A stretch of 48,812 nt of DNA from Vampirovibrionales bacterium (lineage in GTDB: Bacteria > Cyanobacteriota > Vampirovibrionia > Vampirovibrionales > Vampirovibrionaceae), in assembly GCA_029262635.1 (NCBI GenBank), contig JAJCZA010000026.1:1-48812 (forward strand), written 5' to 3'. Position numbers and translations under genes: made by a program. This document shows, one piece after another, positions 6,653 to 41,200 of this stretch (position 1 is its first letter; each line of letters begins with the position of its first letter). The notes beneath the pieces are model-generated. The model saw only the letters and a program-made list of their open reading frames with translations. It ran no database searches and was not told the DNA's origin.

Positions 6653-8002
6653 TTATCCTGCTATGGATTTCGACTTCTCGGTAACCTGACTCAATAATAG
6701 AGCGGATATAAGAATTGAAGCGCCACCAATCAGAAAAGCATAGCCTTCGTTACCACCAAGTGCACTAATTATTGGCCCTACCAAGAAACTGCAGAGCACA
6801 CCGGGAGCCGCAATAAAAATATTGAAGGTTCCCATCAGTACGCCTTCTTTCCCTCGAGGAAGGTGTTCGGTCAACAGAGCAAAAGGCACGGAGAGTGTGG
6901 TCGACCACCCGATACCGATAACCCCCATAGCAATCAGAACCTGTTCAGGTGTTTGCATGACATAAAGCGACATCATGCTAACGGCCATACACAAGACAGC
7001 CAGCTGATGAACCGTTTTTTTCGATAAGGCATGACACAGAGGACTAATCAGCGGCGAAAAGGCAAAACAAACCAGATTCATCAGACAGTAACACCAAGAT
7101 GCCCAGCGAACTCCCTCCTGATACAAAACGGAATCGGCTCCGACGGCGCCAAAAACCTGCTTGGGAACAAAAACGGAAAAGAACACGAAAAGGCACATCA
7201 AACCAAACCAGGTAAAACTATGAGCTACACACAACTTTAACGCTTCCTGTGGCATTGCACCTACGGATTGAAACGTTTTGCTTAATACACTATATACCGA
7301 AGGCTTTGAAACCGGCTCTTCCAAAGTGTCTTCCAGGGGTTTCTCGGGGCAAGTAAAGACCGTCCAACCCATGGCAAACAGCATGGCCAGTGCTCCCAGA
7401 TAAAACAACAAGTGGACATCTGTAATTTGCGAAGCGATAAAAAATGCCGCCACTGCTCCGAGGCCAATGGTCAGGCTCATTAAAGCGTAAGCTGTCGTCT
7501 GTTGCTCTTGTCCCACAACATCGGGCACCATGGCCCGATAAGGACCTTGGGTTATATTAATGCTTGCATCCAGTACCCACAAAAGAGTAGCGGCAACCAA
7601 CAGTCCGACCGGAAACGTGAGGGCCACCGGGCTTACATTCGCCAGCCACTCTCCCAGCCAAGCCGAATTAGGCATTAGAATTAGACTGATGGCGGTTAAT
7701 ATGGCTCCCAAAATCAGAAACGGACGACGACGACCAAAAGCGCTACGGTGTCCATCGCTTAGTGTACCAACAATGGGCTGGACCAGTACCCCAGTTACAG
7801 GCCCGGCGGCCCAAATCATACTGGTGAGCCAAGGTTCAGACCCTAGTCTCTCCAACAGCGGACTCATTTGCCCCATTTGAAGGGCCCAGGCAAACTGGAT
7901 TCCCAAAAAGCCAATGCTCAGGTTCGCCGGCCGAGCCAACCGGGATAGCTTCCCTATTGAAAGAGATTCTTCAGGTGACAGGGAAGACATGGAATCAGAC
8001 AT
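6653..8002 (-). CDS. MFS sugar symporter, sucrose/maltose (SLC45/GPH-like) type
   Basis: This 449-residue polytopic inner-membrane protein has about 12 hydrophobic segments. It matches the sucrose/maltose:H+ symporter branch of the major facilitator superfamily. The first helix carries FAWALQMGQMSPLLERLG. The loop after helix 2 carries SDGHRSAFGRRRPFLILG, the characteristic GRRRPF motif. Helices 7-10 carry VPFALLTEHLP and MGTFNIFIAAPG. The ATG follows AAGGA at a good distance. It lies 88 bases downstream of the long GH13 gene on the same strand. This makes import of a sucrose, maltose or other glucoside the likely role, although substrate choice is inferred from context. Confidence 0.85.
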   Translation of the reverse strand: MSDSMSSLSPEESLSIGKLSRLARPANLSIGFLGIQFAWALQMGQMSPLLERLGSEPWLTSMIWAAGPVTGVLVQPIVGTLSDGHRSAFGRRRPFLILGAILTAISLILMPNSAWLGEWLANVSPVALTFPVGLLVAATLLWVLDASINITQGPYRAMVPDVVGQEQQTTAYALMSLTIGLGAVAAFFIASQITDVHLLFYLGALAMLFAMGWTVFTCPEKPLEDTLEEPVSKPSVYSVLSKTFQSVGAMPQEALKLCVAHSFTWFGLMCLFVFFSVFVPKQVFGAVGADSVLYQEGVRWASWCYCLMNLVCFAFSPLISPLCHALSKKTVHQLAVLCMAVSMMSLYVMQTPEQVLIAMGVIGIGWSTTLSVPFALLTEHLPRGKEGVLMGTFNIFIAAPGVLCSFLVGPIISALGGNEGYAFLIGGASILISALLLSQVTEKSKSIAG

Positions 8003-8090
8003 AACTTCTTTTTCCTTACAGATTAACTTAAAAAGAAACTTAATTGATTAAAACCCAAAAACAAACAAATTGAACTTTTTTGAACCTTTG

Positions 8091-11000
8091 TTACTGACGG
8101 ATCAGTAGTTTATAAACAGGAACATCAATCCCTTTAGCCGGATCCTGCTTGGAAACCAGTTGCCCCGTGTTGTTAATCACGTAATTAAGGCCAGCTTCCA
8201 CATCACGATATTCCGTTCCTTCGGCAATGTCTAGGTTAGACACATTGAGCTTATAATTTTGTTTGATGGGCTGGGTGGATTGGATTTCACGGTACAGCGG
8301 ACCGTCACCCACTTTGTTATTATAATCCAGCTCGGAAGGTAGACCCGTGTTAACCAGCATAACGACCTGCTGTTCGCCATTATCCCGAATCACAGGTAGT
8401 ACACCGTCCTGATCGTTCACCACCGGTTTCAGAACGAATCCGTCATTCAGAGCCGGATACGCTGTTCTTAAATCCAATAACGCCAAAATATCGTCCTTGG
8501 ATTCTCGAATGTCTTTTTTGCCCGCCAGCCAGTCATGACGAATCAGGTTACGATTCTGAAGGAACATGTTTTTGGTGTATTCGCCACCACCCTGAGCCAA
8601 CAGATCCGGCAGGTAAATGGAGGGGTTACCTGGGAGGGCAACCTGAAGCGCCACCACCCGTTTGTATTTCTCCAGAAAGGAGCCCGTCAGTTGATCAAAT
8701 AACTGGGTCTTCAGCTTGGCCAGAAATTTTTTGGAAAAAGGTTGAACTGAAGATGAAGATGAATCTGCCGCCATTATCCCCACCACATCCTGCAAGGCAA
8801 GGTTTGGAGGGAGGTAACCAAAATGCTGCCCCTTTTCCTGAATCGCCTGATTCATCGCCCGGTAAAATATGGTTTTAACCGCTGGATCTTCTGAAACACT
8901 TTCCACAGCATTGTTCAACACCGCTCGCATGGCTCGATTTTCAGAAGGTTCCGAAATCCGTTCAATTAAAACATCCCGAAGCTGTTCGGCCTGCTTCTCA
9001 GAAAGGCCAAGCGTTTTCTCACTCACCGCCTCAAAGAGTTCTTGAATAAAACGGATTTTTAATTCCCTTGGTGTGGGCTCCGTGTTCCCTAACTTTTCCT
9101 TGTTTTCGTTGGTCAGATAGTCTTGCACCTCTTCGGATAACTCGGCTCGAACTTCCTCATGTTGTACCATCGCCAATAAGTCGTTGAGAACTTTTCCGAG
9201 ATGATTAATGCCCAACTGTTGGCGTTGAGTTTCAAAACAGGCTTTTCGTTCCAGCTCATTGGCCGCAACGTTTAAATCATCCACCAGCCCATGCCAACGC
9301 AACAGATCCATGTTAAACAGTTCCGGATTCAATAACAAACGATGGGCGGTGGTTGAATAATCATGGCTCGTCGTCATGTTCTGATAATTCATGGCCGCCG
9401 ACCATGGCACTTCGGTGGTCATTTTCTGGACACTATAGTCATAAAACGCATTGGGTTGAATGGTTCGATCCCCATTCTCATCCGGGCGAGGCTCAAAATT
9501 AACCAAGCGACAAAGTGAACTGAACAGATAATCCATATTCGGCGAACTCGTAAACGTATTGTCATTGAAAAAGGCCTGATAGGCATTTTCTTTGGTCTGA
9601 TGGCCATCCCCTGAATATTTCAGGAAATCGGTTAATTCGGCAATAATCGACACCTTGGGGAAAATAGAATGAATACGCTGAGACACTTCTTTCCAGAAGT
9701 TCTTAGCGAAGGCAATCTCTTCTTTAAAGACGGGCGCACGTTGTGATTGCTCCGTATTTAAAACCCGATCCATATCCCCGATGTCCTTGGCCGCATCAAT
9801 TCGCCAGTTCAAACCAAATTCCCGCTTTTTTAAAACCGCTTCAGCAACGGCAACCGATTCGGGGTCAAGACGGCTCAATTTATTCGATAAAAATTGTCCC
9901 AGAGCATCAACATCCAGAGACTTCAATTGCTGTTTTAAAAAATTGGAAAGTAACCCGGAAGCGGCTACAGGGTCGGCGGTTCGAATATACGCCGGCACGG
10001 TCTCGCTGAAGCCCTTTTCGTAGTCATCTGGCGTTTTCTCAATACCCTTTAGTTGATAGTATTCCGGGCTATGAAGACCGGTAAACAACTGAAGGAAAAT
10101 TTCCTGCCCCAAGTATTCACTCATCAGGCCCCGAATTCGGGCATCTTGAAGCTTCGTAAACGCACCCTTTTTCTCAAACATTTTCGCCAATTGGGTTGTC
10201 AATTGAGCCGAAAGCGTATCCGAGTCTAAATACTTCTTCAGTTTGGTCGCCCAATGCGTGAGAATATTGAATTTTTTAGATAGCTTAACAACAGGGGTCA
10301 AGAGAACCCCCAGAAGCTTTTTAACACCGCCTCGCTGATGGTAAACATCTCGATGGACTTCTGAAAAGCTTAACGTGGCCTTGAATTCGGCAGGTAACTC
10401 TAAAGCCGAAAGAGGGAACTCTGCCTTCATGGTTTCCATCATACGCTCAGCAACAGAGATTTCATCAACATGTTCTTCTTCTTTTGATAACGCTTTCAGA
10501 TGATCCAGAGTGTTTTGAATGTCCGACGTTCCAAGCTTTTCAAACGCCATACGAGGCTTGGGTAGTATATGACCTTCAAGGGCCTGCACTCGGGAAGGCC
10601 AGTCTTTCCCTTTTGCCTGGCGTAACGCCACGGCCACTTCTTCTACATAGGTATTGGTAACATAACGGGACCAATACACCATAGCATCCTGAATATATTG
10701 GCGAACCTCGGGGTTTTTCATGTTCATCTTGGGCACATCAATCTGACCATCCCACTTGATGGAGGAGTTATCCATGGCCGGTTGATTCAACTGAAAATGT
10801 TTCCAGTCCAGCATGGCCTTTTTCCGGTTTATTTCCGTTTGCTCGTCCTTTGGCTGATTTTTTAACTCTTTTTCTTTTTTTAGCTTTTCCTCTTTGTCAG
10901 CCAGTTCTTTTGGGTCAATCGGGAACCGATACGGCTGAACCGAATCACTATATTTGGACTGAGTTCGGGTTTCTTCGGGTTGTGTCTCCTTCAGCCGAAT

Positions 11001-11927
11001 ATATGTCCCTTGAGCATCCTTCTCCACCCCAATATCAAAACGGGAATAATCAATATCTGTCCGGCCGGTGTCTGGATCTTCAGCCACCGGTAGCACCCCG
11101 AAGGTCATCTTGTCCTCTTTAAACAGGTTAGGCAGCGGCGAGCCATTCTCTTCTTCCGAAAAATTGAACCAGTCCCAGTAGGGTGAATTAAAACCATGCC
11201 GAAGATTACTCATCATCTGGACCCCATTCAGCCCCTGATTCACAAAAGCGCCATCGGCATACACCTTCATATCTCGCTTTAGAGCCTCCATCAAGGTATC
11301 TCGTAAGGCCTGTTTCGAAGAAAAGGTGTCATTCAGAACATAGGGATCCACCGTCCAGTATTTATGGGGAGAAATATTATCTCCGCCAATGAATGGTTTG
11401 AAAAGAATGCCCCGGAAAGCGCTTTTAGTATCAATCTTATCGAAAAGCACACGGAGTCCATCCTCATTCCCATAATAGCGATTAAAATGATCTCGCTGAG
11501 AGGTCTGATCCAAAACATGATCCTTTACCCGGTACGATTCCAGCTGTTTCTCCGACAGCAACGAATCTGAAAAAACATCAAGAATAGGTCCGCTTTTTTG
11601 GGGGGCTTCAAAGGGAAAAACCCGATTGAACTTGACGGGTTCATTTCCAGAAGTCGTTTGAATGTTCCGCTGTTCTGACCAATCCAGAACCGGCTGACCT
11701 TCCACCAAAAATCGATAGTCGGAGCCAAGGGGAACCTCTGTAGGGGCAACCCAATAATGGCCTTCCCGAACCAACGCCTCCCGACGAACGACTTGTTTTC
11801 CGCCTTGGCCTTCTAATACCTCGACTTCAGGCGAATTTACTGACGCATGACCCGGCAAAAAGAGCTTTGCCTGCCCCGAAGTTGTTGGGCGATAACCTGA
11901 AAATGTTAAAAAATGTTGTGAAACCAT
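8091..11927 (-). CDS. Giant GH13 (alpha-amylase family) protein with large insertions
   Basis: This 1278-residue protein is predicted to act on alpha-glucans. An N-terminal CBM48/pullulanase-like beta domain (about 1-85) is followed by a split GH13 barrel. Region I is YADGAFVNQG (D225), preceded by YWTVDPYV. Region II is NWRIDAAKD with nucleophile D711. Region III is IIAELTDF with acid E764. Region IV is TTSHD (H855, D856). PGNPSIYLPD at 1099-1105 and LLDLRTAYPALNDG match the end of the barrel. Regions I and II are some 480 residues apart, and region IV to PGNPS some 240; both gaps are far longer than usual and are filled by Lys/Glu/Leu-rich, probably helical sequence. No signal peptide is evident. 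The ATG has AGGAG about 14 bases upstream, a long spacing. All catalytic acids are present, so activity is plausible. Confidence 0.8.
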   Translation of the reverse strand: MVSQHFLTFSGYRPTTSGQAKLFLPGHASVNSPEVEVLEGQGGKQVVRREALVREGHYWVAPTEVPLGSDYRFLVEGQPVLDWSEQRNIQTTSGNEPVKFNRVFPFEAPQKSGPILDVFSDSLLSEKQLESYRVKDHVLDQTSQRDHFNRYYGNEDGLRVLFDKIDTKSAFRGILFKPFIGGDNISPHKYWTVDPYVLNDTFSSKQALRDTLMEALKRDMKVYADGAFVNQGLNGVQMMSNLRHGFNSPYWDWFNFSEEENGSPLPNLFKEDKMTFGVLPVAEDPDTGRTDIDYSRFDIGVEKDAQGTYIRLKETQPEETRTQSKYSDSVQPYRFPIDPKELADKEEKLKKEKELKNQPKDEQTEINRKKAMLDWKHFQLNQPAMDNSSIKWDGQIDVPKMNMKNPEVRQYIQDAMVYWSRYVTNTYVEEVAVALRQAKGKDWPSRVQALEGHILPKPRMAFEKLGTSDIQNTLDHLKALSKEEEHVDEISVAERMMETMKAEFPLSALELPAEFKATLSFSEVHRDVYHQRGGVKKLLGVLLTPVVKLSKKFNILTHWATKLKKYLDSDTLSAQLTTQLAKMFEKKGAFTKLQDARIRGLMSEYLGQEIFLQLFTGLHSPEYYQLKGIEKTPDDYEKGFSETVPAYIRTADPVAASGLLSNFLKQQLKSLDVDALGQFLSNKLSRLDPESVAVAEAVLKKREFGLNWRIDAAKDIGDMDRVLNTEQSQRAPVFKEEIAFAKNFWKEVSQRIHSIFPKVSIIAELTDFLKYSGDGHQTKENAYQAFFNDNTFTSSPNMDYLFSSLCRLVNFEPRPDENGDRTIQPNAFYDYSVQKMTTEVPWSAAMNYQNMTTSHDYSTTAHRLLLNPELFNMDLLRWHGLVDDLNVAANELERKACFETQRQQLGINHLGKVLNDLLAMVQHEEVRAELSEEVQDYLTNENKEKLGNTEPTPRELKIRFIQELFEAVSEKTLGLSEKQAEQLRDVLIERISEPSENRAMRAVLNNAVESVSEDPAVKTIFYRAMNQAIQEKGQHFGYLPPNLALQDVVGIMAADSSSSSVQPFSKKFLAKLKTQLFDQLTGSFLEKYKRVVALQVALPGNPSIYLPDLLAQGGGEYTKNMFLQNRNLIRHDWLAGKKDIRESKDDILALLDLRTAYPALNDGFVLKPVVNDQDGVLPVIRDNGEQQVVMLVNTGLPSELDYNNKVGDGPLYREIQSTQPIKQNYKLNVSNLDIAEGTEYRDVEAGLNYVINNTGQLVSKQDPAKGIDVPVYKLLIRQ

Positions 11928-12080
11928 GGGGCTTAACCCATCTCCTAAAAGTAAAGAGCAAACAACCGATACTTCAACAAATCTCCTGAAGCGGACAAGT
12001 TGCTTAGCCCTTCTTTGGCAATTTTAAGTATCCCATCGTGTTTTGTGTTTATAGTACAACAGTCATAACCTTTAGCTCAT

Positions 12081-12109
12081 TTACATTTTATTGAGACCCT
12101 ACTATCTGC
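12081..12109 (+). promoter_or_regulatory. Candidate promoter of the membrane/GH13 operon
   Basis: TTTACA (12081-12086) and TATCTG (12104-12109) are separated by exactly 17 bases, 20 bases before the first ATG of the plus-strand operon. The -10 element matches only 4 of 6 consensus bases. The 201-base gap between the divergent GH13 genes must hold the promoters for both directions. I could not pick a convincing minus-strand one. Confidence 0.35.
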
Positions 12110-12128
12110 TTGGGGTATATCAAAACGG

Positions 12129-13226
12129 ATGTCATTTATGCCTCCTGTCAATCCCACAATGCGGACTCTATCGTTCGGACAGTCTAAATCACCGGCAAAT
12201 TCACCTTATCCGGTATTTAAGCGTGCCTCTCTAAGCGATAAGACGATTTATTTCCCTGATCAAACCTTTCAGGACGAGCATGTTCTTGAACTCAATGCCT
12301 TAGAAAAAGCCAATTTACATCTAACAAATACATTTATTGAAACCCCTCGCTCTGTTGCCAAAGGGCTTCGAGGAGATCCGGACTTTGGCTTCGGCGATTT
12401 TCTACGTATTGGTAAAATCCCCTACTACTTGGGCGGCGCGTTTCTAACCCTGTTATTCGTGGCGGGTGGCAGTAAGGTGACCGCCCTGCGGCAGGGGGTT
12501 GGCGTTCTTCTTTACTACTTAGGCGTGATTGCAGGAAACCGTATTGTTGACGAGGTGGTTCAGGCCAAATACGGTGTAAACTTAAACCTGAAGTACAAAA
12601 AACATACAGGTAAAACTGAAAACGTTTTCACCAGCCCAGTGTTCAGCCGTTATGACCTCATTCCTAAAAAAACGATTGAAACCATGCGGAAAAAGATGGG
12701 TATTCCGGCCTTTATCGCAGATCCTGAAGGCGAAGTTCGCCAAGTGATTCAAGATCTGATTCCAGCCGCCCGCACAGCAAAAATTCTATTTTCAACAACT
12801 CTGGCCGCTTTTGGAGCTGGCTATCTGGCAAGAACAGACGCATGGACCAGACTGTTTGGCGGATTTAAACCTCTGAAGGGCATCCTGTTTGACTCGCAAG
12901 CAGGCTCTCTTGGAACTCGAATGACCAATGGAATAACCCTTCTCAGCCAAACATTCAAGGATGTTTTTAATGAAAAGTTCCGGGGAAGAGGATCATTTGC
13001 CCAAACCCCTGCCTGGTTCCGGCGTAGTGCTATTGCATTGCCCATCGCGGCCGGAGCTTATTCTCTATGGCAAATTTTCAGGATCGCCCCCTCTAAGGAC
13101 TACGCGCGTCCAGGAACGACCCTATCCGATCGGCTACAGAACTCCAACAACACTTCGGTTTTCCGACAATTCATGATAGCTCAAAATCCTCGGTTTCCGT
13201 CTGACCATCGGGGAGGACCTGCCTGA
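12129..13226 (+). CDS. Multi-pass membrane protein, paralogue of the next gene's N-terminus
   Basis: This 365-residue protein belongs to no family I recognise. Hydrophobic segments are at about 97-113, 121-137, 216-232 and 299-316, with a soluble N-terminal tail of about 90 residues. The stretch 118-235 resembles residues 84-200 of the following protein. Both have a hydrophobic segment, then IVxxxVQxKxGxxxN, a polar stretch with an aromatic cluster, a Lys-Lys-x-x-Ile-Pro element, and a further hydrophobic segment. The stop codon is one base before the ATG of the next gene, so the two are translationally coupled. It probably forms a membrane complex with its fused paralogue. An alternative ATG lies three codons in, behind CGGATG. 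Confidence 0.7.
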   Translation: MSFMPPVNPTMRTLSFGQSKSPANSPYPVFKRASLSDKTIYFPDQTFQDEHVLELNALEKANLHLTNTFIETPRSVAKGLRGDPDFGFGDFLRIGKIPYYLGGAFLTLLFVAGGSKVTALRQGVGVLLYYLGVIAGNRIVDEVVQAKYGVNLNLKYKKHTGKTENVFTSPVFSRYDLIPKKTIETMRKKMGIPAFIADPEGEVRQVIQDLIPAARTAKILFSTTLAAFGAGYLARTDAWTRLFGGFKPLKGILFDSQAGSLGTRMTNGITLLSQTFKDVFNEKFRGRGSFAQTPAWFRRSAIALPIAAGAYSLWQIFRIAPSKDYARPGTTLSDRLQNSNNTSVFRQFMIAQNPRFPSDHRGGPA

Positions 13227-13227
13227 T

Positions 13228-16188
13228 ATGGAAGGTTTCATCCACCCACCTATCGAAAATCACCTTCTGCCCTTGGCTCGGCCCGCTTCTCGCCAAGGTT
13301 TCAGAGAAATATTCCTTCAGGAGCCCGCCCAAACTCTTGATACGCTTGTTAAATCGCACCAGCCCGGCCGCCGCGTTTCTGATCAGCAACTGGGCGACTT
13401 TGATGATCGGATTAAGCTGGTGGGTGGGGCCGCATTAGCAACATTGGCCACTTTAGGTCTAACCCGACGCATTTTGGGCGTTGGAGAAACCCTCGGTTTC
13501 CTGGGATTTTTCGGCGCCATGGCCCTCACTCCAAAAATTGTCCATGCCATGGTTCAGATGAAAACCGGACTGGATATGAACCAAGAGTTTTTCAGTTCCC
13601 AAAGCGAGCGCCGATGGATGTATCAAGACCCAAAATACCTGCCGCTTCATTTACTCTCGGATTCAGACCTCCAACGGATTGGAAAGAAATTAAACATTCC
13701 TGAAGAAACACCGGATCACCGTCGAGTCATCGAGGATCGTATTCATCAAATCGCCAGCCAGTCGCTTACGTGGTGGATGCTGATCGCAGGGCCTGCCACC
13801 CCGGTTATTGGCAGTCTGTTTTCCCATGTTCTCGAAAACCCGGTAAGAGCGGGGATCAGCAAAACCATACAGCTCTACAACCAGGCCGGACTTAAACTGT
13901 TTTCTCATCGGCCCGACTTGAAAAATAAGCATTTGGACAGTGCGTTAAATCAGAGGATTGGTCAGAGCGCGGAGTCCGGTCTATCACGTTGGTGGGAACA
14001 GTTTGCAGACGGTGTGGTTAAACACAGCGGTTTATCCCAATCCACACCGCCTAAAATTTTCCTGAACAAAACACCCGAAGATCGGCTGGACACTCTGGCC
14101 AAACACTTTCATCATAAAAACTACAACCCAAAGGCTTTCAGTCAATACATTCAGACCCAACAAGACCGCCTGACCCAAATAGAAAAGGGCGCACTAAACT
14201 TACTCCAAGGCCAAAAATCAAGCTCAACAATACAAATTCAGAAAGTTAAGGACCGAATCGCCAATGCCCGGGCCACGCTAGCTCATTACAACACATTACT
14301 CCAGCAAACCGGAAAAGGAGATAAACCCGATATTCGTCGACTAAAAAGCCTGATGAATAATTCACGAATCGCTGAAATTGAGCGACTGATTCAACAGGGG
14401 CACAGCCAGGAAGCGAAAAGACTCAGTGGTGGCTCTGAGATTTTTGAGCGGGTTAAAACCTTTATCCGGGAAGGACGGTTTGAAAAAGCGGTGGAAGCTT
14501 TGGGCGATTCCATTGGCAATCATCTGGATCGTTCTACTCGGAACTTTATGCGTCGAAAGCTCTGGCGACAACGTATCTTGCTAGGGCTGGGCGGCGGACT
14601 CACTTTACTTAGCCTTATTTATACCCAGTTGTTTATGGCCCGTGGGCAAAAGTCGGGTAACGAAAAAACCCTCACCAGTCATGAGTTAAAAAACCGTTAT
14701 GCCTCATCGGCTTACCTCCAGAGCGAGAAGGAGCTAGAGACCCTTAAACTTCTCCAGCAACAGCTCGGACCTCTTCCGCCGACCAACTGGACTAACCCGC
14801 TGAAACACCAGTTCCAAAAGAACCAGGCCATTATATACGCACTGAATTTAAGAACCTTTGGTGCCCATGACACTAATGGCGACGGGATTATTTCACCCTC
14901 TCATTCTGAAAACGGGACCTTTCTATCAGCGATCAAGCGCCTCGACAATCTAAAAGATTTGGGTGTCAATACGATTCATCTACTGCCTATCAACTCAACC
15001 GGTATTATCAAGCGCAAAGGAAAAGTAGGTAGTTTATATGCCCCATCTAGCTTACTAACACTTGGAGTCGAATATGATACGCCCGGAAATCGTTTGAACG
15101 TCATTGAAGAAGCTCGACTTTTTATCCGGGAAGCTCACAAGCGGGGCATTAGCGTTATGGTTGATGTGCCCAGCGCCGCGTCATTGGATCTTGCGCTTCG
15201 TCGACCCGATCTCATCGCTACTGACGCCTCGGGCCACACCCTGACACCGACCACTTGGTCAGACATCGTCATGTTTGAAAATAACCAAGCACTGACCGAT
15301 TATTATCAGGGATTCTTCGATTTAATGGCTAACCAACTTGGGGTCGATGGATTCCGAGTTGATGTGGCTCGCGCCCGTCCACCCCAATTCTGGAAATACT
15401 TTACCGATCAGTACCCCAAACATGCTTGGCTCGCCGAATCTTATACATACGAAGACGCCTCGCCTCTGGAAAATATACCGCGAGACAACCCTCTAGAACT
15501 TTTAAGTGCCGGATTTGACTCGATTTATGGCCAGTTACATACTTTTCACCAAATGCGTACTGCCAACGAGTACCAACAATACCTGGCTGACGTTAACCGA
15601 ATGATTAAGATGGCTTCAGGGTACGGAAAATCTATGATTGGCTCTTTTCTGACCCATGATGATGAGGAAACCGTTATGGATCATGGGGGTGTTGTCAACA
15701 GCAATCTGGTCTCCGGCCTGATGGCAACCCAACCCTTCACCAATCCCTATATTCTGGACGGTTACACCACTGGCTTCTCTCACCGGCTTGATATTTTTAA
15801 CCATAAGCAGGCACCCAAAGGACTTTACCCAGAAATCGGCACCTTTCTCCAAACCATGCTCGATCTGCGTAAGCAATATCCGGATGCCTTTGCCACCGGA
15901 AACTACACGCCGGTTCCGGTACTGCATGACCGGCGAAATCAAATCATCGCATTTACCCGACAGTCTAATCATCGCACCTTTCTCGTGATCGCCAACAAGG
16001 ATGTTAATGCCCGAAGCCGGGGGGCGGTTCATATGCCTGCTCTTCCTGACGCCAGACTCTCAAAAAACTTGGCCCCGGAATATGGTCAGCCGAGTATAAT
16101 TTCACCCCATATCGATCCAACGACCCAGATGTTGAACGTTGATTTAGGGCCGGGACGCTTCCATGTATTTGAAGTCACAGCGGTTTAA
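13228..16188 (+). CDS. Membrane-anchored GH13 (alpha-amylase family) protein
   Basis: This 986-residue two-part protein starts with a membrane module like the preceding gene product (hydrophobic segments about 65-100 and 180-200). A helical stretch rich in Lys, Gln and Arg (about 280-440) and a transmembrane segment at about 449-468 follow. A complete GH13 domain occupies 530-986. Its motifs are DTNGDGIISP (548-557, the amylase calcium/DxNGDG loop), LKDLGVNTIHLLPI, region I VDVPSAASL (D646), region II GFRVDVAR with nucleophile D712, region III WLAESY with acid E737, and region IV FLTHDDEE (H810, D811). Region I lacks the usual Asn-His pair. With a single helix just ahead of it, the catalytic domain would sit on one side of the membrane; which side cannot be told. 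GGGGAGG lies 11 bases before the ATG. The product is probably an alpha-glucan hydrolase or transglycosylase. Confidence 0.85.
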   Translation: MEGFIHPPIENHLLPLARPASRQGFREIFLQEPAQTLDTLVKSHQPGRRVSDQQLGDFDDRIKLVGGAALATLATLGLTRRILGVGETLGFLGFFGAMALTPKIVHAMVQMKTGLDMNQEFFSSQSERRWMYQDPKYLPLHLLSDSDLQRIGKKLNIPEETPDHRRVIEDRIHQIASQSLTWWMLIAGPATPVIGSLFSHVLENPVRAGISKTIQLYNQAGLKLFSHRPDLKNKHLDSALNQRIGQSAESGLSRWWEQFADGVVKHSGLSQSTPPKIFLNKTPEDRLDTLAKHFHHKNYNPKAFSQYIQTQQDRLTQIEKGALNLLQGQKSSSTIQIQKVKDRIANARATLAHYNTLLQQTGKGDKPDIRRLKSLMNNSRIAEIERLIQQGHSQEAKRLSGGSEIFERVKTFIREGRFEKAVEALGDSIGNHLDRSTRNFMRRKLWRQRILLGLGGGLTLLSLIYTQLFMARGQKSGNEKTLTSHELKNRYASSAYLQSEKELETLKLLQQQLGPLPPTNWTNPLKHQFQKNQAIIYALNLRTFGAHDTNGDGIISPSHSENGTFLSAIKRLDNLKDLGVNTIHLLPINSTGIIKRKGKVGSLYAPSSLLTLGVEYDTPGNRLNVIEEARLFIREAHKRGISVMVDVPSAASLDLALRRPDLIATDASGHTLTPTTWSDIVMFENNQALTDYYQGFFDLMANQLGVDGFRVDVARARPPQFWKYFTDQYPKHAWLAESYTYEDASPLENIPRDNPLELLSAGFDSIYGQLHTFHQMRTANEYQQYLADVNRMIKMASGYGKSMIGSFLTHDDEETVMDHGGVVNSNLVSGLMATQPFTNPYILDGYTTGFSHRLDIFNHKQAPKGLYPEIGTFLQTMLDLRKQYPDAFATGNYTPVPVLHDRRNQIIAFTRQSNHRTFLVIANKDVNARSRGAVHMPALPDARLSKNLAPEYGQPSIISPHIDPTTQMLNVDLGPGRFHVFEVTAV

Positions 16189-16220
16189 GCTAACCTATTA
16201 AAAAAGGAAGGAAACACCCA

Positions 16221-17144
16221 ATGCAAGCTCATCCCATAATTAGTGGAGGACAAGGCCCGTATAAGACAACTGAACCTTCGGTTAAGGCTTTTTACCACGG
16301 TAGAAACTGCGCGAAAAATATGCACCAAGCGACCAAGCAAGCCTTTCTAGCGTTAGAGAAAAACAAAAATAACCCCTTCATACAAATATTAAATACCTCA
16401 CAAAAATATGCGCAAAAAAACGCAACGATTACTCAGCGCGTCGAGGCCGCTCTCGGGTTTGGTGTCGAAGTGGTTAACCACTTCGACTTAAATGGGGATC
16501 GTCGTTTAGACTTAACCGAATGGCGACAGCGAAAACAATCGGTAACCCCATCTCAAGAAGCTCAGAAAAAACAACATTTTCTAGTATTGGAAAATGTAAA
16601 CGCTCTCACCCTCCGTATTTTAGAAAAAGTAAAAAAAGCAACAAACCCCAGTATTTTAGCTTCTCAAGGGGTTCATATTGATGCGGCTATTCAGGAACAA
16701 AAAAATCGTTCTCAGGAAATAACAGCCCACCCGCCAGATTATTTAGCCGAAGACCCACAAATTGTTGAGCGTAATTTTAAGCAACTTCAAAATGAGAACG
16801 GCTATATTACGGCCAAAGAACTGGCCGCCGAACAACTCATTTCGGATGCCCCTGGGACGTTTTTTGCAACAACCCCTCCCTTTCAGCAACCCCTCTTCTC
16901 ACCTGAAACCTCTCATACATTAAACTGGTTCTTTTTCCTGCTCGCCTCCGCTGGAGACGAAGCCTCCAAATTTGATGGGATTATTACACCCTTTGAAGCA
17001 ACCATAACCAATAGTATCAAACAGCAAGCGTTATTTGACGGTCGTGATTTATTTAAAGAAATGATTCAAGAGGCGAAGAAAAAATACAACATGGATCAAA
17101 TGGCCTTAACCTTCATGAGCGACCCCAGCCAGCCTCTTCATTAA
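16221..17144 (+). CDS. EF-hand protein, third gene of the GH13 operon
   Basis: This 307-residue protein has no overall match that I recognise. Residues 89-100 form a textbook EF-hand loop, DLNGDRRLDLTE (D1, N3, D5, D9, E12), so calcium binding is likely. FDGIITPFEA (about 264-273) resembles a second, degenerate loop. There is no signal peptide or clear transmembrane helix. Very good AGGAAGGA precedes the ATG. The gene starts 32 bases after the membrane-anchored GH13 gene, so it belongs to the same operon. Since GH13 enzymes often bind calcium and that protein has its own DxNGDG loop, a calcium-dependent partner role is a reasonable guess, not shown. Confidence 0.75.
   Translation: MQAHPIISGGQGPYKTTEPSVKAFYHGRNCAKNMHQATKQAFLALEKNKNNPFIQILNTSQKYAQKNATITQRVEAALGFGVEVVNHFDLNGDRRLDLTEWRQRKQSVTPSQEAQKKQHFLVLENVNALTLRILEKVKKATNPSILASQGVHIDAAIQEQKNRSQEITAHPPDYLAEDPQIVERNFKQLQNENGYITAKELAAEQLISDAPGTFFATTPPFQQPLFSPETSHTLNWFFFLLASAGDEASKFDGIITPFEATITNSIKQQALFDGRDLFKEMIQEAKKKYNMDQMALTFMSDPSQPLH
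16464..16487. repeat. 24-bp perfect palindrome inside the EF-hand gene
   Basis: Bases 16464-16487 equal their own reverse complement, centred on GTTAAC (16473-16478), with half-site GTCGAAGTGGTT. It codes for the residues immediately before the EF-hand loop (VEVVNHFD). It may be a chance effect of the codons or a dyad protein-binding site. No comparable site was seen nearby. Confidence 0.6.
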
Positions 17145-17360: not shown

Positions 17361-18371
17361 ATGGCCACCCCCACCGCGTCAACCCCATCTCCAGCGACCG
17401 GAAAGCAAACCCCGGATGCCACCGTAAAATGGCAGCACCGGCATGTGATTGATTCCAGCAAGCTTTCTTACACCGATGTTCAGGAAATCCTAAATACCGC
17501 TAAAACATTCGCCGATATTTTATCCCGCCCGGTCAAAAAAGTACCCACACTACGCGGAAAAGTCATCGTCAACATGTTTTACGAAAACTCGACCCGAACC
17601 CGAACCAGCTTCGAGCTTGCCGGACGCTACCTGAGTGCTGACATTAGCAATTTTTCCATCGCCACGTCTTCTGTTAAAAAAGGCGAATCTATCATCGATA
17701 CGGCAGAAACCCTGGCGGCTATGGGCGTAGATGCTGTGGTTATTCGTCACTCCAGCTCTGGCATCTGTCAACAGCTGGCGAACCATTTTGGTAATCGGTT
17801 GGGCATCATTAACGCGGGTGACGGCTGGCATGATCACCCAACCCAGGGCCTGCTTGACCTATATAGTATTCTAGAAAAACGTTCTTGCATTAAAGGCAAA
17901 AAAATCGTGATTGTGGGCGATATCACCCATAGCCGGGTGGCCCGAAGCAACATCGCTATCCTCAATCTATTTGGTGCTGACGTACATGTGGCTGCCCCCT
18001 CCACCCTGCTTCCTGTAGACATTGAGCAACTGGGTTGCAAGGCTCACACCCAAATAGAGCCCGCACTGGAAGGCGCAGACATTGTCATGTGCCTACGGCT
18101 TCAATTAGAACGTCAAAAAGCCGGATTGATTCCCTCATTAAGTGAATACAACAAGTTTTATACCATTAACAAAGAACGCCTCCAGCGCCACTGCAAGCCG
18201 GATACAATCATCATGCACCCGGGGCCCATGAACCGGGGTGTGGAAATCGCCAGCGATGTGGCGGACGACAAGTCCACCTCCCTCATTACCAACCAGGTCA
18301 CCAGCGGGGTTGCTATCCGAATGGCATTACTCTATCTGGTTTTAAGTACGCCCGTTGAACGGGGCCAATAA
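17361..18371 (+). CDS. pyrB: Aspartate carbamoyltransferase, catalytic subunit
   Basis: The enzyme condenses carbamoyl phosphate and aspartate to carbamoyl-aspartate, the committed step of pyrimidine synthesis, in the cytosol. Key motifs are ENSTRTRTSFE (carbamoyl-phosphate binding), HPTQGLLD, VGDITHSRVARS and MHPGPMNRG. The protein is 336 aa, about 25-30 residues longer than usual. The excess is a low-complexity Thr/Ser/Pro/Ala N-terminus (residues 1-22), so translation may truly start where AGGAGG precedes the ATG, or the tail may be an oddity. No pyrI regulatory-subunit gene is nearby. pyrC follows 30 bases downstream in the same operon. The leader has a stem masking the ribosome-binding site. 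Confidence 0.96.
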   Translation: MATPTASTPSPATGKQTPDATVKWQHRHVIDSSKLSYTDVQEILNTAKTFADILSRPVKKVPTLRGKVIVNMFYENSTRTRTSFELAGRYLSADISNFSIATSSVKKGESIIDTAETLAAMGVDAVVIRHSSSGICQQLANHFGNRLGIINAGDGWHDHPTQGLLDLYSILEKRSCIKGKKIVIVGDITHSRVARSNIAILNLFGADVHVAAPSTLLPVDIEQLGCKAHTQIEPALEGADIVMCLRLQLERQKAGLIPSLSEYNKFYTINKERLQRHCKPDTIIMHPGPMNRGVEIASDVADDKSTSLITNQVTSGVAIRMALLYLVLSTPVERGQ

Positions 18372-18401
18372 ACATTTTAAAGAAAAAGGAGCCTTCCTCC
18401 C

Positions 18402-19715
18402 ATGACTTCAACCACGAAAACCCGATTACTCAAAGGGGGACGTGTTATCAACCCCTCCACTCAGCGGGACGAGATTTGTGATGTCCTTATCGACGGCGAA
18501 GCCATCGTTGCCATTGAAAAAAACCTGTCGCCCGATCATGTCGATGAAGTCATCGAGCTGACGGAAAAACACTGGGTTACTCCCGGCCTCATCGATATTC
18601 ACGTTCACTTCCGGGATCCAGGCCGTTCGGATAAAGAAACCACGGTCACCGGCGCCGCCGCCGCTATTGAAGGCGGATTCACCAGCGTGTGCATTATGCC
18701 CAACACGGATCCGGTCATCGACAGTATGCCTACACTGGAATACGTCCTGCAAGCGGCGAAAAACGTCCCCATTGATATCCACCCTGTACCTGCCGCCACC
18801 CGAGGCATTGCTGGCGAAGCCATTACCAGCATGATGGGCATGGCCGCCAAGGGCGCTGTTGCCTTTACCGATGATGGGCATTGCATCATGAACGCCAAGG
18901 TCATGCGTCTGGCGCTCGAATATTCGAAAATGCTCAACGTGCCCATTATGCAACATGCCGAAGACTATAACCTCTCCGGCCATGGCTGTATGAATGAAGG
19001 CCCTTACTCGACGAAACTTGGCCTTTCCGGGCATCCCAACACGGCAGAAAGCGTGATTGTCGCGCGAGACATTGAATTGGTTCGACAAACCGGCGGCCAT
19101 ATGCACGTGTGCCATATCTCCACCAAAGAAGCAGTTCAGCTGGTGCGTCAAGCCAAAGCCGAAGGACTAAACGTAACCGCCGAGGTGACACCTCATCATA
19201 TCAGCCTGACAGACGCGGCGCTGGAAGGGTATGATCCGGATTATAAAATGTGTCCGCCTCTGCGCTCGGAAGCCGATCGACTGGCTATGATTGAGGGTTT
19301 ACGCGATGGCACCATTGATGCGATTGCCACGGATCATGCCCCTCACACACCCGATGAAAAAGCGCTGGCGCTGGACGAGGCGCCCAACGGCGTTGTCGGC
19401 CTGGAAACGGCTGTCGGTGTGGTGATTACCCATCTCGTTGAACCCGGCCTCATGAGCCCACTGGACATAATTAAAGCCATGACCCTGCGTCCGGCGGAAG
19501 TCATGAAGCTCTCTGCGGGCCGGTTAGAAGTAGGCCAGCGGGCCGACATTACGGTCATTGACTCGGAGCGGGTCTGGGTAGTGGACCCCGCCCAATTTAA
19601 AAGCAAATCCCGCAACTCCTGCTTCAAAGGCATGACTCTTAAAGGCAAAGCCGTCATGACTTTTTTCGCCGGCGAATGTCTGATGAACCAGATACAACAA
19701 ACCACTTCCGTTTAA
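18402..19715 (+). CDS. pyrC: Dihydroorotase
   Basis: This zinc amidohydrolase cyclises carbamoyl-aspartate to dihydroorotate, the step after PyrB. At 437 aa it is the long (type I, AllB-like) form. Motifs in order are DIHVHFRDPG (metal-binding HxH), GGFTSVCIMPNTDPV, MQHAEDY, HVCHISTKEAV, AEVTPHHISL and ATDHAPHTPDEK (catalytic Asp). AAGGAG precedes the ATG. It lies 30 bases after pyrB and ends the operon. No active-site change was noticed. Its GC-richer, C-ending codons contrast with the AT-rich gene that follows at 20048. Confidence 0.96.
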   Translation: MTSTTKTRLLKGGRVINPSTQRDEICDVLIDGEAIVAIEKNLSPDHVDEVIELTEKHWVTPGLIDIHVHFRDPGRSDKETTVTGAAAAIEGGFTSVCIMPNTDPVIDSMPTLEYVLQAAKNVPIDIHPVPAATRGIAGEAITSMMGMAAKGAVAFTDDGHCIMNAKVMRLALEYSKMLNVPIMQHAEDYNLSGHGCMNEGPYSTKLGLSGHPNTAESVIVARDIELVRQTGGHMHVCHISTKEAVQLVRQAKAEGLNVTAEVTPHHISLTDAALEGYDPDYKMCPPLRSEADRLAMIEGLRDGTIDAIATDHAPHTPDEKALALDEAPNGVVGLETAVGVVITHLVEPGLMSPLDIIKAMTLRPAEVMKLSAGRLEVGQRADITVIDSERVWVVDPAQFKSKSRNSCFKGMTLKGKAVMTFFAGECLMNQIQQTTSV

Positions 19716-34847: not shown

Positions 34848-35252
34848 ACCTTTCCCGTAACTATAAGCCGGTCATTCCTGAACAGTAGAGGAAGCTTTCT
34901 CGTTGCCTCCTTATTTCACATGATTTTCCCTCCTTTAAAAAAGGGAGAAGAGGAAAAGATAACCGTCTGCTTTTCAATGTCTACATAGAAGGGTTTAGCC
35001 ATTTTAATACCTAAAAAGACCCCTTTTATAGAGGGGCTAAAGAGATTGATTTTTATAGAAGCAAGCCATGGATAATTTACAAATGAAAAAGCTATTTACT
35101 TACTCTTACGTTGATTAGCCGATCTTTGTAACAAAAATATAGTTTTTACCTATAGAAATGTCTAAAGTGGTCGATAGAGGAGTATAGAGAATTTTCTTTT
35201 TCCAAATCCGATTTAATAAATTATTAGATAAAAAAGGTATTCGTGGTTGAGC
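34848..35252. other. Gap between the permease and the giant adhesin
   Basis: This 405-base AT-rich stretch has no gene that I can support. It holds a C/G-clustered hairpin region around 34928-34955 (CCCTCC ... GGGAG), another hairpin at 35020-35036, and the adhesin's leader. I found no confident promoter. AAAAAGG (35231-35237) may be the adhesin's ribosome-binding site. Confidence 0.5.
35020..35036 (+). terminator. Weak terminator-like hairpin
   Basis: CCCCT (35020-35024) pairs with AGGGG (35032-35036) around a seven-base AT-rich loop. A T-run (35048-35055 area) follows but not immediately. It could end transcripts of the permease gene. Confidence 0.3.
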
Positions 35253-38200
35253 ATGATTGCCCTTAGACAGATTTACAACAGCATTCAATCGCTGGTTTCT
35301 TCAATTGACCAGCGATTGAATGCTGTTCTCACATCGGATTTTATGAAAGGGTTGGGAAACACAAAAAATCGGATTTTCTTGCGGGGGCTGGTTAAACGCA
35401 GTATTGCACTGGCGATGGTGGGTAGTTTTATTACCTATTCGGCTGCGGTTTACGCACTTCCAACAGGCGGAGACGTTGTTACCGGTGATGTAACTATCTC
35501 TCAACCCGATAGTACAACCATGAACGTCACGTCAGGATCCAATCGTTCTATTGTCAACTGGAACACCTTTGACATCTGGCAAAATGAAACGGTTAATTTT
35601 CTTTTGCCAGGGAGTAATTCAGCCATTTTAAACCGGGTGACCGGCGGATCGCCGTCTTCTATTTTAGGGCGAATGAACTCCAACGGACAGGTTTATCTTA
35701 TTAACCCCAGCGGGGTAATTTTCGGTGCGGGAGCCCAAGTTAATGTGGGCGCACTCACCGTTTCGACAATGGATATTACCAATGCCAATTTCCTGAGCGG
35801 CAATTTAGTCTTCGCGCGTGCGCCCGGTTCGAACCCGGCCTCTATTATCAATCAAGGACTGATTCTTACCGCCGATGGCGGTCATGCCGTACTCATGGGG
35901 AGCGCTATTGAGAACAGTGGTTCCATTACCTCACCCAACGGACAAATTCATTTTGCGGTCGGCGATCAGGTGACCATGTTAACCGATACCGAAGGGGTTT
36001 TGGTTGACGTCGTCGTGGATAAAGCCCTGTCGGATCAGGTTGAAAATTACCAAACCGCTATTGACAACACTGGGGTTCTGGATGCCAGCGGTGGACTAAT
36101 CAAGCTGCAAGCTGACCTAAAAAATAGTGTCTACGAACGGGCCATTAATAATGACGGCCAGATTAAAGCCATCGGGTTCGCGTATCGAAATGGACAAATT
36201 GAGATTGTAGCCCACTCTGAAGATCAAACCGCCTTAATTGTAAATGGCGGGCTCATTGACGTCAGTGGTGGTCAATTAATGACCGACGGCGGAACCGTAA
36301 ATATTGACGGCGACTTAATGATCCAGGCCGGTGATATTTTAGCCAATGCCGGTGACATGGCACGAGGCGGAAATATTCGAGTCAGTTCCACGAAACAAAC
36401 AACCCTCACGAATACCAGTATTATCAACGCCAACGGGGGTGAAACCTCGGGTGACGGCGGAAACATCGTTGTTTGGTCTGATGAGGACACCTATTTTGAT
36501 GGAAGCATTGAAGCCAAAGCGGGCGCATTAGGTGGCGACGGCGGATTCATTGAAACCTCGGGCAAACTCACGCTTTTTGTCGAAGGCTCTTCCTACGTCA
36601 ACGCATCGGCGCCCAATGGCAACGGCGGATTGTGGCTTATGGATCCCACGGACATGACCGTTAATGCCGGTGCAGGAGCTGATACCGCATCGAATGTCTA
36701 CGCCAATAATATTCAAACCACCCTCAACACCGGAACCAATGTCACCATCCAAACCGCCGCTGCCGGTGGGGCCAGTGGTGATATCACCGTGCTGGATGGG
36801 GTCACCATTAACAAAACCGGCGGCGGAGCAGCGACGCTTCGTATGAATGCCCATGAATCTATTTTATTCAATGGGGCTGGTACCGGCATTACCATCTCTT
36901 CTTCAAGCAGCACGCTGGATCTGATTCTCAATGCGGATTTTGATAACAGTGGCGTCGGGGGTATTCTACTCACCAACACGGATATTACAACCAACAACGG
37001 CAATGTCACCTTTGGTGGTGGGCTTAATCCCGCTACAACCGCAGCGGTCGCCACATCTGCTCTTGGAACCGGAATATCACTCAATGGCAGTACCATTACG
37101 AGCGGAACCGGCAACATTTCTCTCCGAGGGCAAGGCCACACAACCGGGGGCTACGGCGTTTCTATTGATGGGAGCAGTGACCTGCATACGACGAATGGGG
37201 CTATTACGATCACGGGAACCGGCGGAGCAAGTGGCACAGATAACTATGGTGTTTATACTGATGGTATCGTCCGTGCTACTGGAGTGGGAACGGTTGATAT
37301 TACCGGCACCGGCGGTAATGGAACAGGATGGAACTATGGTGTTTATGTTGATGGAGCAAGTGGTGGTGAAGTCAGCACCGTGAACGGGACCCTTGATATC
37401 ACGGGAAGCGGTTCAGGCACGACCGAACAAGGCTATGGCATACAGGTTTCGGGTGGTGGTATCGTTCGTTCAACAGGATTTGGGGATGTAACCATCGATG
37501 GTACTGGAAACAATGCTGGAACGAGATGGAACTATGGTGTTGTTGTTTATGGCGCGGGCAGTGAAATTAGCACCGTGCATGGGGATCTGGATGTCACAGG
37601 AACAGCCGGAGGAACAACTTATGGGAACGAGGGCATTAATGTTAGTGGTGGCGCAAAAATCAGATCCACCGGATTCGGTAATGTCACCATTGATGGCACC
37701 GGAGCCAATGGAAGCTACAGTAATTATGGGGTTAATGTTCATGATGCTGGAAGCGCTATTAGTGTAGGCAGTGGTAGTGCGCTAAACATTACGGCCACCG
37801 GAGGGAGTGGAAGCACCACAGATAACCGAGGGCTTTCTGTCACCAATGCCGGAACCATTACGGCGACTGGATCAGGGACGATAGATATCACCGCCAACAG
37901 CGGTATAGGAGGAACCACAGATAACCGGGGCGTTCTGGTTGATGATGTGGGCAGTGAAATTAGCACCGAGCATGGTGCGCTTAATGTGACCGGCACCGGG
38001 GATGGGACGGTTGATAAGAACTATGGGATTCATGTGAGTGACGGTGCCATCCGTTCAACAGGATTTGGGGATGTAACCATCATTGGTACTGGCGGCAATG
38101 GACAGAAGTGGAACCATGGCGTTGTTGTGGCTACGGGCGCTGAACTGAGTACCGTGATTGGGGATCTGGATGTCACCGGAACAGCCAATGGAACGACCCG

Positions 38201-41200
38201 TGACAACAGTGGGATTCAGGTTATTGATGGCGGGAAAATTCGCTCGACAGGATTTGGAAGTGTCACCGTAGACGGCACCGGATCCCACAATGGAACAGTA
38301 CGTAACTATGGGATTTATGTTGGGTGGCCCGGTACCGGAGGGGAAATTAGTACCATCAACAGCACACTCAATATTACGGGTACGGGCGGTAACGGAAGCG
38401 GCAATGATAATCAAGGTATTAAGGTCGATACGTTAGGTGTCGTTCGCTCGACCGGAACAGGAAATGTCACCTTAGACGGCACCGGCGGTAACGGCACAAG
38501 CTTTAATTTTGGTGTTGGTGTTGATGATACAGGCGTAATCAGCACAGTGAATGGAACGCTAGATATTACAGGCACCGGGGGTAACGGCTCTCAAGAAGAA
38601 AACAGTGGTATTGACATCAATAATGGCGCTGTGGTTAAAACCACAGGATTTGGCGCACTAAACCTGACCGGTGCCGGGGGAACGGGCACCTTTAGTAATG
38701 ATGGGGTTCATATTAATAACCCAAACACCGAAGTCAGTACCGTCAATGGCACCATGACCATCGACGGCACCGGCGGGAGTGGAAGTACCGAGGATAACCT
38801 TGGGGTGATAGTCAATAGTTTTGCCGACGTCAAATCAACCGGATTCGGCACAATCAATATAATCGGCGTCGGTGGCACGGGTGGTACGCAAAATAACATA
38901 GGGATCGTTGTTAACAATGGCGGTTCGGTTGAAGCACTTGGGACTGGCGGCCTCAATATGACCGGCACCGGCGGTACCGGCGGAAGCAGTAACGGTCATC
39001 AGGGTATTGCGATAAGTAATTTCGGAAATGCCAATAATGTCACTAGCCGCTCAGGAGATATTATTTTCCATGGAACAAAGGGAAGCAATGCCGCAGCAGG
39101 CATTACCATTATTGGCGCTAACACCATTGGAGATAGCTTAACCACCGGGGATATTCAGCTGTATAGCGACACCTGGAGCTTGGGCGGACTGGTCCTAGAA
39201 ACCGCAGGAACCATGGTCTTTGCCCCTGAAACCGCCACGAATAGTATTGGCATTAACGGCGGAGCCGGAACCGTACAATTTGATAACACCTTTTTAGATA
39301 CGATTAACACCGCCACCGTGACGCCCACCCAAGTCATTTTTGGTAATGAAACCGCAGGAACCGGCGCCGTCACCATTGGCAACAATTGGAACATCAGTGC
39401 CTACAACCTCTCCACAAAATCCGTCGGCGGCAGTGTGAGTGCCGGTAACATAACCGACGGAACCGGGAACCTTACCCTGGAAGGCCGAACCGGGAATGTT
39501 TCTTTTAATACCATCACCGGTTCCAGCGGAAGTTTTACAGGTACGGCCAGTAACACAATTAATGTCAACGGCAATGTAACCACCACCAACGGCGATATTA
39601 CCTTAACTGCGGATTCGGATAGTAGTGGGGGAGGCAACTTAAATATTTCTAATAGCCTTTCGTCTACCGGTGGAGACATCACTTTATCGGGCGTATTTAT
39701 TACTTTAGACTCAGGAAAAACCGTTAATAGTGGCGGCGGTTTAATCCAATCCACTTCTTCAGATGAAACCTATATGGCTGGGACTTTATTATCCGGTGGC
39801 GGTAATATCAACCTCACAGCCAGTACGGCGGTCAACGGATTTCTTGATATTGAGAACACGGTTGACTCCAGCGGCGGAAACATTACGCTTACAGGCGACA
39901 AACTTGATATTTATAACGTCGCATCGGTTAATTCTGGAGCGGGCAGTATTACCGGTACGTTCGCCCGGGATATTGATATCAGCCGTAGCGTCACCTCCAC
40001 AAGCGGAAATATTAGTTTCACCGCCGATTCAGATGCGAATGGTTCCGGCGATATAAATCTCAGTGCGGCGATGGCTTCGGGTGGCGGCGATATTACGCTG
40101 CAAGCGGCGGACATGAGCCTAACCTCGGCTATTAACGCCGGAGCAGGCGATGTTCAGCTCATCTCTTCACAGTTGGGAGCGACCATTGGTTTGGGTGGCG
40201 CGGCTGGCGGACTTAATTTGTCTCAGGCGGAACTAAAGAATGTTGCGGCCAGTGACCTGATTCTGGGGAGTGATACCACCACCGGTACCATTGCCTTTGA
40301 TTCTCTGAACATTACAGGAGAAACCTACAATCTCACCCTGAATACCACAGGAGCCATTACCGATGTCAGCGCCGGGGAAGGGTGGAATCTGGTTACGGAC
40401 AATTCAATTAATATGACTATCACTGGGGGCGGCGGTACCGGCTCCGGTCAAATTGGTGGGGCAGGGGTTGCCGATCTGGACGTCGCCCTGCAGGGTGGCC
40501 TTTTTGATATTATCACCAATAATGCCGATATCTTTCTTGAAGAAAGCGGTGTGAATAACCTAGACATTAATACCATCTCCTCAAACGGCGGAGATATTAA
40601 TCTGACCGCTGGATTGCGTATTCAAAACACGGGGGCCATTGATTCTGGCGGCGGAGATATTAATTTAATTGGTACGACCGACTTGAATGCCAACAACACC
40701 ATCAGTTCCGGTGCCGGAACCATTACCGCTACCTTTGACGATGACATTAATGTCAATGCGGCCATCACCTCTACAGGCGGAGACATTATTTTCACAGCAG
40801 ATTCGGATTCAAGTGGAGCTGGCGACATAAACATCGACGGAAATCTCACCGCTAGTACAGGTGATATTAACCTCACCACCACTTTAAATGATATTAACCT
40901 GGATTCCGGGGCAACGACACGGACCCATTCTGCAACGGACGTAACCATGAACGGCGTCAATATTAATATTGTGGATGCGGGAACCACTGTAACAGCAACC
41001 GGTGACCTCGGTGGTGGTGTAACTAATTATGATGATAACGCAGGAACACCCGCGGCACCGCCCATTACCCCGGGCGACACCATTAATGGGGGCGATTCAG
41101 GTGGAACCATTACCATTACAGGTGAGCTCCACAGTGTGGGAACCCTAACCGCTAATGGCGGTAATGGTAGCAATGTCACCATTGATTACGACGCCAGCAA

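Follow-up and report, generated by a model that had tools for sequence, protein, structure and literature searches.

A conserved and apparently undescribed gene set in Vampirovibrionales and Gastranaerophilales: a SUC/SLC45-like symporter, two unusual GH13 proteins and a pair of membrane-type proteins

Described relatives of the proteins reported here include the neopullulanases, maltogenic amylases and cyclomaltodextrinases (PDB 2z1k, 1sma, 2wc7); the maltooligosyl trehalose synthase TreY (3hje, 1iv8), a GH13 barrel with large helical insertions; a group of enzymes with maltose-unit chemistry comprising AmyB of Thermotoga neapolitana (4gkl), the maltosyltransferase of Thermotoga maritima (1gju) and GlgE (3zss); and, among transporters, plant SUC1 (8bb6) and mammalian SLC45A4 (9giu). 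Canonical region I of GH13 enzymes reads D-x-V-x-N-H. The locus that we compare with these systems comes from a Vampirovibrionales bacterium, a non-photosynthetic relative of cyanobacteria, whose own relatives include Vampirovibrio chlorellavorus, a predator of algae. It extends to the Gastranaerophilales, largely gut bacteria, which are common and hard to culture. We found no published description of the set in the literature searched. Alpha-amylase and starch use are listed for Melainabacteria in general (Di Rienzi 2013), and 123 CAZymes are reported by Soo et al. (2015; PMC4451040), this cluster going unmentioned in the passages of that paper that were found.

An earlier note on the window (the whole 48,812-nucleotide stretch analysed) had proposed five adjacent genes, in two divergent operons sharing a 201-base control region, as a candidate undescribed alpha-glucan system. 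All five open reading frames are real and lie where the note had placed them, the fourth (13228-16188, plus strand) encoding a 986-aa fusion, and the gap between the divergent starts is 201 bases long. The features are as follows.

6653-8002, minus strand: SUC/SLC45-like MFS symporter, 449 aa, a predicted disaccharide/H+ importer (Pfam MFS_1, 1.6e-23)
8091-11927, minus strand: bigGH13, 1278 aa, a signal-less GH13 protein with two large helical insertions (Pfam Alpha-amylase, 2.3e-6)
9360-9797, minus strand: catalytic region of bigGH13, with D711 (9795-9797), E764 (9636-9638) and D856 (9360-9362) placed by alignment
11928-12128, no strand: divergent intergenic region, 201 bases, its layout kept in G001, G003, G004, G006, G007 and G008
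12129-13226, plus strand: smem, 365 aa, a membrane-type protein of a new family and a paralogue of mem, without a Pfam/NCBIfam match
13228-14757, plus strand: mem domain of the 986-aa fusion (aa 1-510), a separate gene in most relatives
14761-16188, plus strand: GH13 domain of the fusion (aa 512-986), with triad D712/E737/D811 and region I DVPSAASLD (phmmer, 4gkl 1.3e-17)
16221-17144, plus strand: EF-hand-like orphan, 307 aa (EF-hand_6, 2.8e-4, below cut-off)

Three of the genes have known families, as the note had said, with MFS represented once and Alpha-amylase/GH13 twice in Pfam and among solved structures. The 365-aa protein has no Pfam/NCBIfam family, and the 307-aa protein has sub-threshold EF-hand matches. 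The "membrane partner" is indeed membrane-type, but it has a homologue next door, which makes up the N-terminal half of the 986-aa "GH13". No SusC/SusD pair, as in a Sus-like locus, was found among the five proteins with Pfam and NCBIfam. The intergenic region contains one imperfect inverted repeat (11968-11977 / 12023-12032); scanning found no promoter-like match within it, and promoter and terminator scans gave match numbers no higher than in shuffles.

Conservation of four of the five genes

We searched 58 related genomes for the symporter, bigGH13, smem and mem-GH13. Gene maps show all four genes adjacent in six other family members, the same six in which the intergenic layout is kept, in the order symporter, bigGH13, then divergently smem, mem and GH13. 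G009 has the same layout over the stretches that its contigs cover, and V. chlorellavorus carries the same cluster (L150; L125). Strain NCIMB 11383 of that species (L150) is among the named relatives of bigGH13, the more distant of which are mostly Candidatus Gastranaerophilales. The neighbourhood comparison with which the earlier note had proposed to check its claim thus bears it out for four of the five genes, conserved both as proteins and as neighbours in other genomes. The conserved set consists of the SUC/SLC45-like symporter, the 1278-aa GH13 protein, the 365-aa membrane-type protein and the 986-aa fusion.

The EF-hand-like protein is not part of it. It has one canonical loop, DLNGDRRLDLTE (aa 89-100), with Pfam scores under the cut-off; canonical 12-residue EF-hand loops are usually paired. 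Its sole relative in the 58 genomes is a weak 22% match in G002, and for want of conservation we rejected it as a bystander, so that the proposal of a common set holds for four genes and fails for this one. Downstream on the same strand, and outside the set, lie the pyrimidine genes pyrB and pyrC (17361-19715). Farther along, an open frame on the plus strand (35247-48812) runs off the contig end; it encodes a giant protein, at least 4522 aa long and without a Pfam match.

The earlier note would have given up its claim had the genes been scattered in relatives. They are split in some of them: in G005 the set genes are spread over three contigs, and in family f2 and the Gastranaerophilales (f6) smem, mem and GH13 stay together with bigGH13 and the symporter at other loci. 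Yet the genes still co-occur. Both bigGH13 and smem are present in 21 of the 58 genomes and neither in 36; the remaining genome, which is 56% complete, has smem only, and bigGH13 was found in none of the 36 genomes without smem. Symporter and smem likewise occur together in 21 of 22 genomes; the MFS protein stands alone in one more. Co-occurrence extends to nearly every genome sampled from Vampirovibrionaceae, f2 and Gastranaerophilales and to hardly any other Vampirovibrionia lineage sampled. The Fisher p value of 7e-15 is inflated by the shared ancestry of the genomes and is not to be read as a probability of linkage. That the genes are chance neighbours without a common function is very improbable in our judgement: the scatter just described and the clearly unrelated EF-hand gene would fit that explanation, but adjacency persists at 26-63% protein identity across six further genomes, and co-occurrence persists where the genes are unlinked.

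A broader profile search with smem covered 292 Cyanobacteriota genomes and gave matches in 131. Besides our own genome, these belong to family f6 of the Gastranaerophilales, apart from a single genome of f10. Among the genomes listed, every Gastranaerophilales genome had a match, and class family f8 and cyanobacteria of other classes had none; 141 more genomes without a match stand beyond those listed. Since gut-dwelling Gastranaerophilales carry the set, algal starch, which the earlier note had suggested as a natural substrate for a predator or epibiont of algae, is too narrow an explanation and does not apply generally.

The two GH13 proteins and the symporter

By sequence, bigGH13 is nearest to the neopullulanase/maltogenic amylase/cyclomaltodextrinase group, whose catalytic triad it shares; it differs from that group in its length of 1278 aa, in its two helical insertions (aa ~409-701 and ~868-1097) and in region I, which reads DGAFVNQG in place of the canonical motif. 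This departure is conserved across the aligned group, and the triad D711/E764/D856 is kept in all aligned family members except one paralogue. Residues 120-1278 were modelled with AlphaFold (pLDDT 80.7, pTM 0.79), and Foldseek returned GH13 matches, the best over the whole length being TreY (3hje, 5.9e-7 over 1167 columns), although the superposition is weak overall (TM 0.29/0.46, rmsd 23.7). Despite the likeness in fold, we rejected an identification as TreY: no TreZ over the cut-off was found in our own genome, nor more generally in G000, G001 and G003, and in relatives true TreZ lies elsewhere. In V. chlorellavorus relatives it is found near a further GH13-type frame of ~1000 aa, away from the set.

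The exceptional paralogue lies on contig C29 of our own genome (L109:7655-11662), flanked by alanine racemase on one side and an ABC permease on the other. It has none of the three catalytic residues, D having changed to N, E to N and HD to TD, and is probably a pseudoenzyme. The same neighbourhood is present in G005, with which the paralogue groups.

The GH13 domain of the fusion falls under the Pfam cut-off, yet it is clear against solved structures. In a profile search it matched 4gkl (3.9e-37), 1gju (4.9e-29) and GlgE 3zss (9.9e-20), with 3dhu also among the nearest. The triad D712/E737/D811 is conserved in the alignment, and in both enzymes the Asp nucleophile, the Glu acid/base and the third Asp have the order and sequence context expected for GH13 regions II, III and IV. 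Region I, DVPS(C/A)AS, lacks the Asn-His pair throughout the group; in the printed alignments this pair is present in 4gkl and 3dhu but likewise absent from maltosyltransferase and GlgE, so the departure in region I does not exclude either enzyme from GH13. In contrast to AmyB, maltosyltransferase and GlgE, its closest solved relatives, the window protein carries a membrane-type domain, has its own form of region I, stands in a different neighbourhood and comes from a genome without maltokinase. Mak_N_cap, which marks the TreS-Pep2/Mak route to maltose-1-phosphate, is absent from every genome with the set, and for lack of this maltokinase route we rejected GlgE as the likely identity of this domain.

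The symporter belongs by sequence to the SUC/SLC45 type and has its GRRRPF motif, and its orthologues in the host's family are 57-63% identical. It shares the motif with plant SUC1 (7.2e-30), one of its closest solved relatives, and with SLC45A4, the other; it differs from both in being a bacterial protein of 449 aa that falls far under the GPH_sucrose cut-off of NCBIfam (1.3e-42; 146 of 511 bits). Its candidate substrates are maltose and sucrose.

Might the set act on the cell's own glucan? The earlier note had remarked that glgA, glgB and glgC were missing, which is correct locally, none being found in the block, but not for the genome, which has glgA at C5 and glgC at C23. Its further conclusion, that this is not a standard glycogen operon, agrees with our finding of no linked glgA/glgB/glgC in the block, and we rejected a plain glycogen operon because glgA and glgC are unlinked to it. 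No GH13 GlgB over the cut-off was found in our own genome; a short GT35-type phosphorylase lies elsewhere in it. A less restrictive proposal, that the set synthesizes or mobilizes storage glycogen at the membrane and that the symporter is incidental, could draw on glgA, glgC and this phosphorylase, on the presence of smem in all Gastranaerophilales genomes among those listed, on the relationship of the fused GH13 to GlgE, and on a starch-synthase-like (GT5-like) glycosyltransferase that adjoins the block in G003, G004 and G007. We nevertheless consider it unlikely. Canonical glgA and glgC were not found in G001 and G003, which carry the set all the same, so that the set does not depend on ADP-glucose glycogen; a GlgE route would lack maltokinase in every set-bearing genome; and the symporter sits beside bigGH13 throughout the family.

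Homologous glycosyltransferases occupy opposite ends of the block in V. chlorellavorus (L125:1435-4380), G007 (L130:15937-18903) and G003 (L124:3476-5845). A GH13 branching enzyme is present in G001 and G003, and none over the cut-off was found in the relatives that bear glgA and glgC. Neighbours of 839-878 aa in relatives were considered as phosphorylases and rejected; they are PriA, malic enzyme, GH35 and SecA.

The smem and mem pair and the side of the membrane

Proteins smem and mem are paralogues (hhalign 98.6%, E 5.6e-16, 180 columns), which suggests a heteromeric pair that arose from an old duplication. They form an unnamed family pair, widely kept in Vampirovibrionales and Gastranaerophilales, for which we found no family in Pfam or NCBIfam and no fold in the PDB. 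The AlphaFold model of smem is all-helical (pLDDT 77, pTM 0.68), and a fold search against the PDB gave no significant match; the only hits, helical and BAR-domain-like, had E values of 0.25 or above and were dismissed as meaningless. The hydropathy peaks of both proteins are modest and their hydrophobic helices weak; to judge from their sequences, they are likely to be membrane proteins.

In most relatives smem, mem and GH13 are separate genes, and most of the junctions checked overlap by 4 bases; the mem-GH13 fusion forms one clade (window, G001, G003) that is monophyletic at 99/99. A second, unfused smem-mem-GH13 unit is found on contig C12 of our own genome (L108:7971-12227), and its GH13 groups with G005, also at 99/99.

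We considered whether the pair might be an export or display device, such that a signal-less GH13 digests glucan outside the inner membrane or beyond and the adjoining symporter imports the product. In 12 of 13 Vampirovibrionales sequences the last mem helix has more positive charge on its N side, a positive-inside bias that would place the fused GH13 outside; a hydrophobic helix precedes this domain, and in the window the domain contains no cysteine. Hydrolases of V. chlorellavorus have also been proposed to reach prey through a T4SS (Soo et al. 2015; PMC4451040). On balance, export appears rather unlikely to us, as the unfused GH13s tested have neither a signal peptide nor a TM segment, several unfused orthologues have 4-8 cysteines, a weak sign of a cytoplasmic location, and the Gastranaerophilales already own a second family member equipped with a Sec-type N-terminus. 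This second GH13 was present in 9/9 Gastranaerophilales genomes examined (L113:7221-8768; L222-L229). The signal-less copy in the cluster is, by comparison, probably the inner one, and the two N-termini suggest that these bacteria have one enzyme outside and one inside for related substrates.

The genomic setting in Gastranaerophilales raises another alternative. At 5/5 loci (L111, L114, L116, L117, L120) four co-directional genes that agree in size and order from locus to locus precede the unit; in L111, the one locus annotated, they are a SIS-CBS isomerase, a HAD phosphatase (KdsD/KdsC-like), a PTPS and uppP. Such company would suit a unit that builds or trims a capsule- or LPS-linked envelope glucan, with the symporter and bigGH13 in a separate sugar pathway. 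We regard this as improbable, since Vampirovibrionales do not keep the uppP neighbourhood and have bigGH13 and the symporter beside the unit instead, and since bigGH13 accompanies the unit in both groups.

A proposed working of the set

Starting from the observed gene content, conservation, co-occurrence, smem-mem homology, mem-GH13 fusion and catalytic triads, we infer a substrate, a complex, a membrane side and a direction of flux. Other enzymes would cleave alpha-glucan extracellularly, and the symporter would take up the resulting disaccharide, maltose or sucrose, together with protons. Within the inner membrane smem and mem, which are helical, paralogous and weakly hydrophobic, would assemble into a heteromeric scaffold. 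This scaffold would hold a GH13 of the maltose-unit type, either maltogenic or maltosyl-transferring, most likely at the cytoplasmic face, and the large soluble bigGH13 would further hydrolyse or rearrange maltodextrins. We tentatively favour a lineage-specific system of Vampirovibrionales and Gastranaerophilales that uses alpha-glucan disaccharides after their import and has a maltosyl-type GH13 held at the membrane, probably at the inner face, as a reading that is quite possible while falling somewhat short of probable. Several observations count against it: the charge bias at the last mem helix, which speaks against the inner face; the glycosyltransferase flanking the block in three relatives, a hint of synthesis; the position of the Gastranaerophilales unit beside uppP and probable KDO genes and not sugar genes; the separate loci of bigGH13 and the symporter in f2 and Gastranaerophilales; and the weak hydrophobicity of the smem and mem helices. 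A bolder idea, conceivable and on the doubtful side, is that smem and mem constitute a new two-protein device, found only in Vampirovibrionales and Gastranaerophilales, whose role would be to tether a signal-less glycoside hydrolase beside a disaccharide symporter or to translocate it there, serving as a physical enzyme-transporter channel or a dedicated export route.

The set is real, conserved and apparently undescribed. The natural fusion of mem to GH13 provides a direct clue to the role of the smem/mem pair, and the occurrence of the set across the sampled Gastranaerophilales and in the algal predator Vampirovibrio makes it a probable part of core carbon metabolism in a class that is poorly understood.
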